Positions 60,967-64,000 of a stretch of 64,000 nucleotides of DNA are shown one piece after another. Numbering within the stretch: position 1 is the first letter of the stretch; each line of letters begins with the position of its first letter. Under the pieces are notes generated by a model. It was not told the origin of the DNA. It made no database searches and saw only the letters and a program-made list of their open reading frames with translations. This DNA comes from Croceibacterium aestuarii. Lineage in GTDB: Bacteria; Pseudomonadota; Alphaproteobacteria; Sphingomonadales; Sphingomonadaceae. Position numbers and translations under genes: made by a program. The stretch lies in NCBI RefSeq assembly GCF_030657335.1, contig NZ_CP131039.1:2062501-2126500 (forward strand), in the 5' to 3' direction.

Positions 60967-62250
60967 ATGGCGAAGCAGGGTGAAGGCGGCGGCTACAACC
61001 GGCCGCGGCTCGCACTGCACGTTCCGGAACCGAAGTTTCGGCCCGGCGACACGGTCGACTTTTCGCATATCCCGGTGCCCGAGGCGGGCGCTCAGCCGCG
61101 GCCCGACGAGACCTGCGCGGCCAGCGAAACCAACCCGCTGTGCACCGCCCTGGTGCGCGTGCTGGGTGATGACAACAAAGCGCACGGTCCGTGGGATCCG
61201 CGGCTATCCCCCGACAAGCTGCGCGAGATTCTGCGCGACATGGCGCTGGTCCGCGCCTTCGACGAGCGGATGTATCGCGGTCAGCGGCAGGGCAAGACCA
61301 GCTTCTACATGAAATGCACCGGCGAGGAGGCGACCTCGGTCGCCGCCGCGCATGCGCTGGCCAGCGACGATATGGCGTTCCCAAGCTATCGCCAGCAGGG
61401 CGTGCTCATCTCGCGCGGGTATCCGATGGTCGAGATGATCAACCAGATCTACTCCAATCGCGGCGATAAGCTGAAGGGCCGTCAGCTGCCGATCATGTAT
61501 TCGAGCCGCGGCTATTCGTTCTTCACCATCAGCGGCAACCTGGCGACGCAGCTGCCCCAAGCGACGGGTTTCGCGATGGCCAGCGCGATCAAGGGAGACA
61601 GCCGCATCGCCGCCGCGTGGGTGGGCGAGGGGAGCACCGCCGAAGGCGACTTCCACTCCGCGCTGACTTTTGCTGCAGTCTACAACGCGCCCGTCGTGTT
61701 CAACGTCGTCAACAATCAGTGGGCCATCTCGAGCTTTTCCGGCTTTGCCGGTAGCGAGCGCACGACCTTTGCCGCGCGGGCCATCGGTTACGGAATCGCC
61801 GGCCTTCGCGTCGACGGCAACGACCCCCTGGCGGTCTATGCCGCCGAACGCTGGGCTGCCGACCGCGCCCGGTCGAACAACGGCCCGACCCTCATCGAAT
61901 ATTTCACCTACCGCGCCGAGGGCCATTCGACCTCCGACGACCCCAGCCAGTATCGCAGCGCGCAGGAGCGCGAGGAATGGCCGCTCGGCGATCCGATCAT
62001 GCGGCTCAAGCTGCACCTGATCGAACTCGGCGAGTGGTCCGAGGATCAGCAGAAGGCGATGGACCAGGAACTGGCCGAGGCGGTCAAGGCCGCGACCAAG
62101 GAGGCCGAAAAGAACGGCATCCTCGGTCACGGCATGCACCACCCGTTCCACACCATGTTCGAGGACGTGTTCGAGGAATTGCCGTGGCACCTGGAAGAAC
62201 AGGCCGATCAGGCGATCCGCGAGAGGAAGATCAAATGGCCACAGCAGTAA
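60967..62250 (+). CDS. Branched-chain 2-oxoacid dehydrogenase E1 alpha
   Basis: Thiamine-diphosphate subunit decarboxylating 2-oxoacids of Val, Leu and Ile. The 427-residue protein has MALVRAFDERMYRGQRQGKTSFYMKCTGEEATSVA, the thiamine motif in AWVGEGSTAEGDFHSALTFAAVYNAPVVFNVVNNQWAIS, and EYFTYRAEGHSTSDDPSQYRS (phosphorylation-loop equivalent). Overlaps E1 beta by 16 bp. The long N-terminus is typical of bacterial BkdA1. Confidence 0.92.
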   Translation: MAKQGEGGGYNRPRLALHVPEPKFRPGDTVDFSHIPVPEAGAQPRPDETCAASETNPLCTALVRVLGDDNKAHGPWDPRLSPDKLREILRDMALVRAFDERMYRGQRQGKTSFYMKCTGEEATSVAAAHALASDDMAFPSYRQQGVLISRGYPMVEMINQIYSNRGDKLKGRQLPIMYSSRGYSFFTISGNLATQLPQATGFAMASAIKGDSRIAAAWVGEGSTAEGDFHSALTFAAVYNAPVVFNVVNNQWAISSFSGFAGSERTTFAARAIGYGIAGLRVDGNDPLAVYAAERWAADRARSNNGPTLIEYFTYRAEGHSTSDDPSQYRSAQEREEWPLGDPIMRLKLHLIELGEWSEDQQKAMDQELAEAVKAATKEAEKNGILGHGMHHPFHTMFEDVFEELPWHLEEQADQAIRERKIKWPQQ

Positions 62251-63299
62251 GCGGGGACGACGTCGTCAGCCTGTCGGACGCCCCGACCCGGCCGATGAAC
62301 ATGATCGAGGCGATCAACGACGCGCTCGACATCATGCTCGAGCGCGATCCGGATGTCATCGTCATGGGCGAGGACGTAGGCTATTTCGGCGGCGTGTTTC
62401 GCGCCACCGCCGGCCTGCAGGACAAGTACGGCAAGACCCGCGTGTTCGACACGCCGATCTCCGAATGCGGGATCATTGGCGTGGCGGTGGGAATGGGCGC
62501 CTACGGCCTCAGGCCGGTGCCGGAGATCCAGTTCGCCGATTACATCTATCCGGGGCTCGACCAGCTCATCTCCGAGGCGGCACGGCTACGCTATCGCTCG
62601 GCCGGCGAGTTCATCGCCCCGATGACCGTGCGCACGCCCTTCGGCGGCGGCATCTTCGGCGGGCAGACGCACAGCCAGAGCCCTGAGGCGATCTTCACCC
62701 ACGTTTCGGGCCTCAAGACCATCGTCCCGAGCACCCCCCACGATGCCAAGGGCCTGCTGATCGCCGCGATCGAAGACAACGACCCGTGCATCTTCTTCGA
62801 GCCGAAGCGGATCTACAACGGCCCCTTCGACGGATATTACGACAAGCCGACCAAGCCGTGGAAGGATCACCCCGACGCCAAGGTGCCGGAAGGCTACTAC
62901 TCGATCCCGCTCGGCAAGGCGCGAACCGTGCGAAAGGGCGAGGCACTGACCGTGCTGGTCTACGGCACCATGGTCCATGTCGCTGAGGCCGTGTGCCGCG
63001 AAAAGGGCGTCGATGCCGAGATCATCGACCTGCGCACGCTCGTCCCGCTCGACATCGAGGCTGTGGAAAAGTCCGTGGAAAAAACCGGGCGCTGCCTGGT
63101 GATACACGAAGCGACGCGCACATCCGGCTTTGGTGCCGAACTGGTCAGCCTGGTGCAGGAACGCTGCTTCTACCACCTCGAAGCACCGGTCGAACGCGTG
63201 ACCGGCTTCGACACCCCCTATCCCCACAGTCTCGAATGGGCCTATTTCCCCGGTCCGATCCGCATCGGCGAGGCGATCGACAAGCTTCTGGAAGCCTGA
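62235..63299 (+). CDS. Branched-chain 2-oxoacid dehydrogenase E1 beta
   Basis: Second E1 subunit, 354 residues. It has MNMIEAINDALDIMLERDPDVIVMGEDVGYFGGVFRAT, EIQFADYIYPGLDQLISEAARLRYRS, IPSTPHDAKG-like VPSTPHDAKGLL, and the C-terminal EAVEKSVEKTGRCLVIHEATRTSGFGAEL. The ATG at 62235 lies inside the E1 alpha end and ties the two together. It ends 3 bp before E2. Confidence 0.93.
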   Translation: MATAVSGDDVVSLSDAPTRPMNMIEAINDALDIMLERDPDVIVMGEDVGYFGGVFRATAGLQDKYGKTRVFDTPISECGIIGVAVGMGAYGLRPVPEIQFADYIYPGLDQLISEAARLRYRSAGEFIAPMTVRTPFGGGIFGGQTHSQSPEAIFTHVSGLKTIVPSTPHDAKGLLIAAIEDNDPCIFFEPKRIYNGPFDGYYDKPTKPWKDHPDAKVPEGYYSIPLGKARTVRKGEALTVLVYGTMVHVAEAVCREKGVDAEIIDLRTLVPLDIEAVEKSVEKTGRCLVIHEATRTSGFGAELVSLVQERCFYHLEAPVERVTGFDTPYPHSLEWAYFPGPIRIGEAIDKLLEA

Positions 63300-63302
63300 C
63301 GC

Positions 63303-64000
63303 ATGGCACGATTCACTTTCAACCTCCCCGACATCGGTGAAGGCATCGCCGAAGCAGAGATCGTCGCCTGGCACGTGAAGGTCGGCGACATGGTCGAGGA
63401 AGACGGCCGCCTGGCCGACATGATGACCGACAAGGCGACCGTCGAGATGGAGAGCCCGGTCTCCGGCAAGATCGTCGAGGTCGCGGGCGAGGAGGGCGAT
63501 GTGATCGCCATTGGCAGCCCGCTGGTGGTCGTCGAGACCGAAGGCGAAATTCCGGAAGAGGTCGTCGAAGCCAACGAAGCGGTGGCCGAGGAGGCCGATG
63601 CCCCCGCGCCGAAGGCCGAAGCGGTCGAGCAGCGGATCGAGGTCGAGACTTCCGACGCCAGCGATGCCGAGGATGCGATTGCTGCGGAAGCGGCACCGCC
63701 AGAACCCGTTCGTCCTGAGCCTGTCGAAGGACGAAGTGCGGAGCCACAACCGTCGCAAGTTCGCGGTTCGACAGGCTCACCGCGAACGGAGAAGGACAAG
63801 CCTTCTCCGGCAAGCGGACCTTCCTCCGGCGCCAAAGTCCTCGCCAGCCCGGCCGTGCGCCAGCGCGCCGCCGAACTGGGCATCGATCTTGGCGAAGTGC
63901 GCCCGGCCGAGGACGGCCGCGTGCGCCATGCCGACCTCGATGCCTTCCTGTCCTACGGCGCGAGCAAGGGCTTTGCACCGGCGGGCAAGGCGATGCGCGA
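63303..64000 (+). CDS. Branched-chain 2-oxoacid dehydrogenase E2 (partial, cut by window end)
   Basis: Lipoyl-bearing acyltransferase core subunit; only the first 232 codons are in the window. The N-terminal lipoyl domain (FNLPDIGEGIAEAEIVAWHVKVGD, lipoyl-Lys in DKATVEM) is followed by an Ala/Glu/Pro linker and a peripheral-subunit-binding domain (LASPAVRQRAAELGIDLGEVRPAEDGRVRHADLDAF). The linker contains RPEPVEGRSAEP and GSTGSPRTEKD, the translated form of an inserted palindrome pair. The catalytic domain lies beyond the window. Confidence 0.92.
   Translation, partial: MARFTFNLPDIGEGIAEAEIVAWHVKVGDMVEEDGRLADMMTDKATVEMESPVSGKIVEVAGEEGDVIAIGSPLVVVETEGEIPEEVVEANEAVAEEADAPAPKAEAVEQRIEVETSDASDAEDAIAAEAAPPEPVRPEPVEGRSAEPQPSQVRGSTGSPRTEKDKPSPASGPSSGAKVLASPAVRQRAAELGIDLGEVRPAEDGRVRHADLDAFLSYGASKGFAPAGKAMR
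63709..63787. repeat. Inverted pair of dispersed palindromes inside the E2 linker
   Basis: Left hairpin: TTCGTCCT and AGGACGAA (63709-63716, 63728-63735) around an 11-base loop. Right hairpin: GTTCGCGGT and ACCGCGAAC (63759-63767, 63779-63787) around another 11-base loop. The two loops (63717-63727 and 63768-63778) are exact reverse complements. The pair keeps the frame open and adds roughly 27-30 codons. Confidence 0.85.

Follow-up and report, generated by a model that had tools for sequence, protein, structure and literature searches.

What is the pair of palindromes that lies in frame in the E2 gene at this locus, and what could have carried it there? The window, the whole stretch of 64,000 nucleotides that was analysed, ends within a gene for a 2-oxo acid dehydrogenase E2 acyltransferase (63303..64000, + strand; 466 aa in total, extending beyond the window end). 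Upstream of it on the same strand lie the genes for the E1 alpha subunit (60967..62250) and, immediately next to E2, the E1 beta subunit (62295..63299). No NCBIfam curated cut-off was reached that would name the exact substrate type of this E2.

The inserted element, 84 bp long (63706..63789, no strand assigned), consists of two palindromic units arranged head-to-head, and its natural ends are the outer tags CCGTTCG (from 63706) and CGAACGG (up to 63789); this refines the span of 63705-63790 given in a preliminary description of the locus. Unit 1 (63706..63732, + strand) consists of the tag CCGTTCG, the stem TCC, the loop TGAGCCTGTCGAA, the stem GGA and a C, and unit 2 (63763..63789, - strand) of the same tag, the stem CGG, the loop TGAGCCTGTCGAA, the stem CCG and a C. 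Between them is a spacer (63733..63762), a part that varies from genome to genome. The general layout of a unit is CCGTTCG-NNN-TGAGCYTGTCGAA-N'N'N'-C, two units standing head-to-head, and this architecture recurs in dispersed copies elsewhere. The two hairpins that had been described were confirmed, one with an 8 bp stem (arms 63709-63716/63728-63735) and one with a 9 bp stem (arms 63759-63767/63779-63787), each closing a loop of 11 nt; of the two loops, GAGCCTGTCGA and TCGACAGGCTC, each is the exact reverse complement of the other. The element stretch folds better than 200 of 200 shuffles (z -4.45). The predicted insert of about 28 codons and its place in the flexible E2 linker also held: 84 bp is 28 codons, a multiple of three, and the E2 frame is therefore kept. 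The element encodes approximately residues 135-163, between the lipoyl (6-76) and E3-binding (179-212) domains, with the catalytic domain at 233-464.

Within the 64 kb window TGAGCCTGTCGA occurs exactly only in the element's own two copies, with 15 further matches at 1 or 2 mismatches. The whole genome contains 39 matches to the core TGAGCYTGTCGA versus 2 to the same pattern read backwards; the sequence is not unique, and the proposed layout of a mobile REP-type pair is borne out by this dispersal. Nine of the 39 were excluded by hand as chance matches with neither tag nor stem, leaving 30 cores at 19 places. Where dispersed units are picked solely by their core, CCGTTCG precedes a 3-base stem that covaries. 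This 3-bp stem is perfect in 22 of the 39 cores of this genome (all 22 among the 30 retained; maximum of 2000 shuffles 12), in 31 of 32 units of the genome G001 (maximum 17) and in 102 of 121 cross-phylum mates (maximum 41), and CCGTT is present in 29 of the 32 G001 units. The element is hence an intragenic palindrome pair of the REP/REPIN type (short palindromes, dispersed, often as inverted pairs) and known in kind, as shown by its anatomy, dispersal, covariation and in-frame insertion.

Most of the 19 places lie outside genes by rough gene calls, which are approximate in that the codon-usage caller preferred antisense frames; the copies in E2 and in pyruvate phosphate dikinase (PPDK) are clearly intragenic. 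The PPDK copy is a second in-frame pair, tail-to-tail, inside the PEP-binding domain (L018 909-3011, - strand; genome C1 2340928-2340993; insert TLRQAQGARGGDEESGSARPEPVEGLG), and there is possibly a further in-frame copy near the start of a SnoaL-like ORF of this genome (L034). Among 65 cross-phylum head-to-head pairs, lengths modulo 3 number 23, 22 and 20, so about one third of pairs can enter genes in frame by chance; five of six reading frames through the unit are open on inspection by eye.

At least one core was found in 267 of the 296 genomes of the order, with a range of 0-256 per genome. Of 398 genomes of the phylum, 11 contain a stricter 25-base pattern. A scan of species genomes gave at least 120 stretches, from groups that include Chloroflexota, Fibrobacteres, Dadabacteria, Omnitrophota and Nitrospirota together with several proteobacterial classes, and exact copies thus occur in other phyla too. 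Several local arrangements were seen along the way. In G001 (C2 36835-37258, L119-L125) units form a cluster that repeats about every 113 bp and resembles grouped REPs. G210 has nested units (L404-L423, for example L409 and L410), with an outer arm CCGTTCG..CTGAG and an inner TAG-NNNN-TGAGCYTGTCGAA hairpin, which represent a longer variant of the family; an apparent strand bias of single units in G210 was discarded, because not every mate had been counted: L406 contains the beginning of one more. The unit loop is amplified in a Dehalococcoidia genome as a 14-bp tandem array (L309 826-1358; L135 5225-5295), and the L309 array has 39 steps and lies directly upstream of a GIY-YIG gene.

The history of the insertion was followed in E2 orthologues. 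The search covered 78 genomes, and only the 30 loci it returned were examined. A pair of the window's family occupies the E2 linker in four of the 30 (G000, G001, G002 and G020) and a sister palindrome with the loop GAGCGWAGTCGA in three (G031 and G025 as pairs, G037 as a single copy); 23 of the 30 contain neither palindrome family with one mismatch allowed. The near relatives G004, G003 and G017 have E2 orthologues without the segment, a positive outcome for the comparison that the preliminary description had proposed. Its expectation that the insert would be limited to this lineage held in part only: the insert is not limited to the species, being found also in G001, G002 and, in another genus, G020. 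On a tree of linker-free E2 proteins the window-family carriers need 4 changes and the sister-family carriers 3; a single clade for the former is rejected (p 1.6e-8), and they are scattered on the tree. The inserts of G001 and G002 have spacer sequence in common, which argues for one gain before the genus split. It is probable, other histories being possible, that the E2 insertion predates the diversification of the genus and was lost or decayed in G003 and G004, and with the same proviso we read the G020 insert as a separate gain. No clean empty site was found in E2, the linkers of G003 and G004 being too rearranged. The E2 linkers of G032 and G015 (L049, L052) contain the segments PSPSLAGRGE and PLPGGERE, which resemble dispersed repeats of yet another kind.

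The suggestion that the host gene is essential was not supported. In 10 of 47 same-family genomes (own genome included) the best E2 match reached only E 2.5e-28 to 4.2e-35, which is the level of other E2 paralogues. This count was made by us from a table, and at least two of the ten genomes are less than 90% complete.

Among known repeats, the CGTC REPs of Di Nocera, De Gregorio and Rocco (2013; PMC3733652) resemble the CCGTT family in being short palindromes, mostly head-to-head dimers, that are intragenic too. They occur mainly in Alphaproteobacteria and are not associated with transposase genes, and REPs occur inside genes as well, flexible linkers included (PMC3733652). The two units are built differently, however: the CGTC unit has an unpaired tag CGTC, an 8-9 bp stem, a 4-5 nt loop and a 3-bp tail that is mostly CCA (PMC3733652 Table 1), whereas in the CCGTT unit the tag is CCGTT, the stem measures 4-5 bp, the loop is 13 nt long and a CCA tail is lacking, so that it does not fit the structural criterion of the CGTC super-family. 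It is not excluded that the CCGTT family is one of the Sphingomonadales families of PMC3733652. The GTAG REPs/REPINs with their RAYT (TnpA-REP) resemble the CCGTT family in having non-autonomous pairs and a unit-flanked gene as the autonomous form, and repeat copy number is tied to gene presence for RAYTs (PMC8266576), as it is for the nuclease described below. The CCGTT family differs from them in its tag and in its GIY-YIG partner, which is unrelated to the HUH tyrosine transposases, and it does not meet the GTAG REP criteria: the tag is CCGTT, there is no RAYT here, and no exact core was found at 37 loci returned by a Y1 search.

The likeness in principle to the in-gene palindromes of Rickettsia (RPE) that had been proposed was upheld, both being palindromes in frame in protein genes, although sequence and host differ; RPE-4 and RPE-6 are classed under the CGTC REPs (PMC3733652). 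The Rfam family RF02901 (AaHKsRNA41, Aggregatibacter sRNA 41) contains in its consensus two inverted loops almost identical to these, GCUGAgCUUGcCGAAGC and its complement. The window pair matches it below threshold (63708-63787, 23.4 bits), as do 9 of 14 other loci scanned (L137, L128 and L109 among them), but the best score anywhere was 40.2 bits against a gathering score of 97 and membership is not met. RF02901 differs in being annotated as an sRNA, not a repeat, and it is conceivable that this sRNA family is itself a repeat pair of this kind. Neither the unit sequence nor the encoded peptide was found printed in the open-access texts searched, and the Sphingopyxis paper PMC4741004 does not mention such repeats in the passages searched.

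A candidate for the mover came from inspecting units that stand 200-3000 bp apart. At two loci a small gene lies between head-to-head units, 357 bp apart in L149 (one unit with a mismatch) and 358 bp apart in L161. Its product, 95 aa in L149, is a GIY-YIG nuclease domain (PF01541, 67.3 and 54.4 bits, above the curated cut-off of 22.6). L145, seen beside these two, was rejected as having a chance core at one end. The catalytic-type residues of GIY-YIG enzymes are two Tyr, an Arg and a Glu; the Y, Y.G.T, R, H, E and K columns are at least 90% conserved in 47 CCGTT-type domains and nearly as conserved in 22 CGTC-type domains. In L161 (3797-4180, - strand) the GIY-YIG frame was seen to read through the flanking unit, giving the nuclease a repeat-encoded tail (KRASTSSARTEEG).

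A search with the L149 and L161 proteins matched 123 of the 296 genomes of the order at 1e-10, and at 22 of the 30 nuclease loci returned the gene is enclosed by head-to-head cores, counted with up to one mismatch. Inverted-repeat flanks, with a threshold score of 14 or more, were present at 24 of 30, 17 of 20 and 4 of 5 strong nuclease loci, at 8 of 20 weak matches, and at 12 of 27 and 11 of 15 other small GIY-YIG genes, for which some windows were misplaced at contig ends. Similar windows gave none at 34 Y1-search loci (3 of the 37 were left out for short flanks) and none at 30 E2 loci. The fixed flank window was misplaced at contig ends for L287, L294, L297, L300, L307, L310, L366 and about a dozen Y1 controls; these were redone, the nuclease loci in the typing below and the Y1 controls with true coordinates. 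An all-against-all comparison of ORFs within 600 bp of the elements, made for gene families common to their neighbourhoods, gave only overlapping loci and apparently ordinary genes. This genome has no small nuclease gene, its sole GIY-YIG match being a UvrC-sized frame of 660 aa.

For typing, 119 nuclease loci were taken, UvrC-sized matches (L304-L306) having been excluded beforehand; 118 could be located, and short flanks excluded 2 of them, which leaves 116 typed loci. By flank they comprise 36 of type A and 11 of type B, the nuclease gene again lying between units in both, 26 CGTC, 7 other and 36 with none at threshold, and relabelling by motif gave 52 CCGTT, 26 CGTC, 2 other and 36 none. 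The motif rules behind the CGTC label are our own, and they admit some repeats in which CGTC itself does not occur. The 52 CCGTT loci stand in 30 distinct neighbourhoods and the 28 CGTC-or-other loci in 27. On the tree of the 116 loci, which rests on 95 columns and has many open forks, CCGTT (52) and CGTC (26) separate by a single change, against a mean of 22.2 and a minimum of 16 in 300 shuffles, and SH-aLRT support for the branch that sets the CGTC clade apart is 99%. CGTC-looking repeats flank small GIY-YIG genes of a sister clade to the CCGTT-type nucleases. Types A and B separate on the nuclease tree by 3 changes versus 7 or more in shuffles. Dispersed tags were compared in seven genomes, and in 7 of 7 the most frequent one (in G030 a tie) is also a tag beside a local nuclease gene. 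The samples are small, with 5 or 6 distinct dispersed units in each of G210, G201, G030, G005, G280 and G246; the seventh genome is G001. ACCGTAG is the commonest tag in G246, in 2 of 5 dispersed units, and also stands beside its nuclease, and G210 has both CCGCTAG and CCGTTCG dispersed with one nuclease beside each. One nuclease of G280 has CCGTTAG, which is absent from the 5 dispersed units sampled there.

Nuclease presence also tracks the number of repeats. The median is 30.5 cores in 68 genomes with a strong nuclease match (below 1e-20) versus 4.0 in 228 genomes without (p 6e-18), and within eight genera none of 5000 permutations reached the observed rank sum. There are exceptions on both sides. 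Nineteen genomes have 30 or more cores but no strong match, this genome (39) included; among them are G259 (188 cores) and G138 (156), whose small GIY-YIG genes have CGTC-type or other flanks. Six genomes have a strong match yet 2 cores or fewer, and in one of these, G287, the nuclease gene is flanked by the sister family B.

Outside the order, a GIY-YIG gene lies between two units in Solimonas (L285) and in a Dehalococcoidia bacterium (L288, L309), so that a unit was found on both sides of a nuclease in 2 of the 18 out-of-order genomes searched, where not every match became a locus. A phylum-wide sample of small GIY-YIG genes comprised 70 loci, of which 5 were set aside and L460 dropped as a contig-end artefact, leaving 64. 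Inverted-repeat flanks were found at 20 of these 64; among 325 mismatched pairs there were 3, and 125 random places gave none. Sorted by kinship, 25 of the loci belong to Alphaproteobacteria and 16 of these have such flanks, compared with 4 of the 39 from other classes, a skew that in our reading agrees with the CGTC repeats being mainly alphaproteobacterial.

The analysis thus shows that pairs recur in E2 linkers, that a nuclease gene lies between two units, that the nuclease clade matches the unit type and that nuclease presence tracks copy number. That the GIY-YIG nuclease moves the repeats is inferred and not shown, no movement or cleavage having been observed. Also weighing against it are the exceptions in copy number, the 36 of 116 nuclease loci without flanking repeats at threshold, the weak Y1 link given below, and the scarcity of flanked genes outside the order and outside Alphaproteobacteria. 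The window element is most likely a non-autonomous CCGTT-tagged pair whose full-length form is a GIY-YIG gene between head-to-head units. This nuclease partnership is the new part. No earlier report was found in the open-access literature searched, where title and term counts gave none linking GIY-YIG with REPs or miniature inverted repeats in bacteria, and a term search of RepRanger (PMC12306157) gave no GIY.

The rival that survives best, though we consider it unlikely, holds that the GIY-YIG gene is a passenger, the repeat pairs serving as landing sites or terminators while the repeats owe their movement to another agent. REPs are known landing sites of other elements (cf. the title of PMC1525189), a gene inserted into the spacer between paired units would give the same picture, and genomes with many units and no strong nuclease match exist. 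Against it, tag classes follow nuclease clades with one change, and the dispersed tags equal those beside the gene in all seven genomes compared. In addition, some nuclease copies in different surroundings lose their similarity at the tag or a few bases away (right end of L259/L264, left end of L360/L363); in other copy pairs the similarity extends at least a few bases further, and some pairs are clearly orthologous.

A second alternative, which we regard as very improbable, is that a RAYT-type (HUH, Y1) transposase moves the pair, in trans or since lost, as for the GTAG REPs. In its favour, the layout is that of REPINs moved by RAYTs, a Y1 match is present in 55 of the 296 genomes of the order, and inside genera there is a weak association between having Y1 and the number of cores (182 of 5000 permutations, 0.036). 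However, the overall association with copy number gives p 0.18, this genome gave no Y1 match at E 10, and a REP-transposase model gave none at E 1 here or in G001. The 37 Y1-search loci, some of which overlap and three of which (L100-L102) are chance-level matches, contain one-mismatch cores in L070 and L094 only. In wider windows 7 of 34 Y1 loci have inverted repeats of their own, none containing the CCGTT unit; we read several of these as the terminal repeats of RAYT-like genes, which shows that repeats of this sort are visible to the flank test. In L160 (3667-4212) a RAYT-like gene has, by eye, GTAG repeats of its own on either side. It adjoins a CCGTTCG pair in a Nitrosomonadales contig, a neighbourhood that looks accidental. 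With no Y1 gene here and none flanked by the unit, a RAYT/IS200-type partner was rejected as the main mover; Y1 was the sole transposase class tested for flanking by the CCGTT unit, and it is GIY-YIG genes that are flanked. The third alternative, ordinary low-complexity protein that is palindromic by chance, finds support in the E2 linkers of the orthologues examined, which are generally variable and in many cases rich in Pro, Ala and Glu, but is all but ruled out by covarying stems and by dispersal of the unit here and in distant phyla.

Under the preferred reading, in which the GIY-YIG nuclease is the mover, the enzyme would recognise its own units by their tag and hairpin, probably while the DNA is single-stranded and folded, and would cut at the tags, starting the copying or transfer of the DNA between two units. 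This DNA would be the nuclease gene itself or, for action in trans, the short spacer that separates paired units. GIY-YIG enzymes cut DNA and are not known to join strands, and a further host step would therefore be needed. The copy in the window would probably have entered the E2 linker before the genus diversified, the reading frame being kept by chance, with about one third of pairs of suitable length and five of six unit frames open, and would have survived because the linker tolerates additional residues. The copies of this genome look decayed and are best read as fossils, because no such nuclease gene is there now.

REP-type repeats are common in bacteria, and of their two large classes the CGTC repeats still had no known mover in 2013 (PMC3733652). 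The GIY-YIG gene is, by inference from sequence alone, a strong candidate mover for the CGTC repeats, for which no dedicated transposase has been reported. A nuclease gene that lies between matching repeats and tracks their type and number makes the question of the mover testable with one protein and one oligonucleotide. A bolder reading, which we consider probable, is that a stand-alone GIY-YIG nuclease, without an HUH or DDE transposase, spreads hairpin-ended units and serves both the CCGTT and the CGTC families with clade-matched tags. If true, a non-HUH, non-DDE enzyme would join the movers of bacterial miniature elements, and this would explain how palindromes become built into proteins such as E2.
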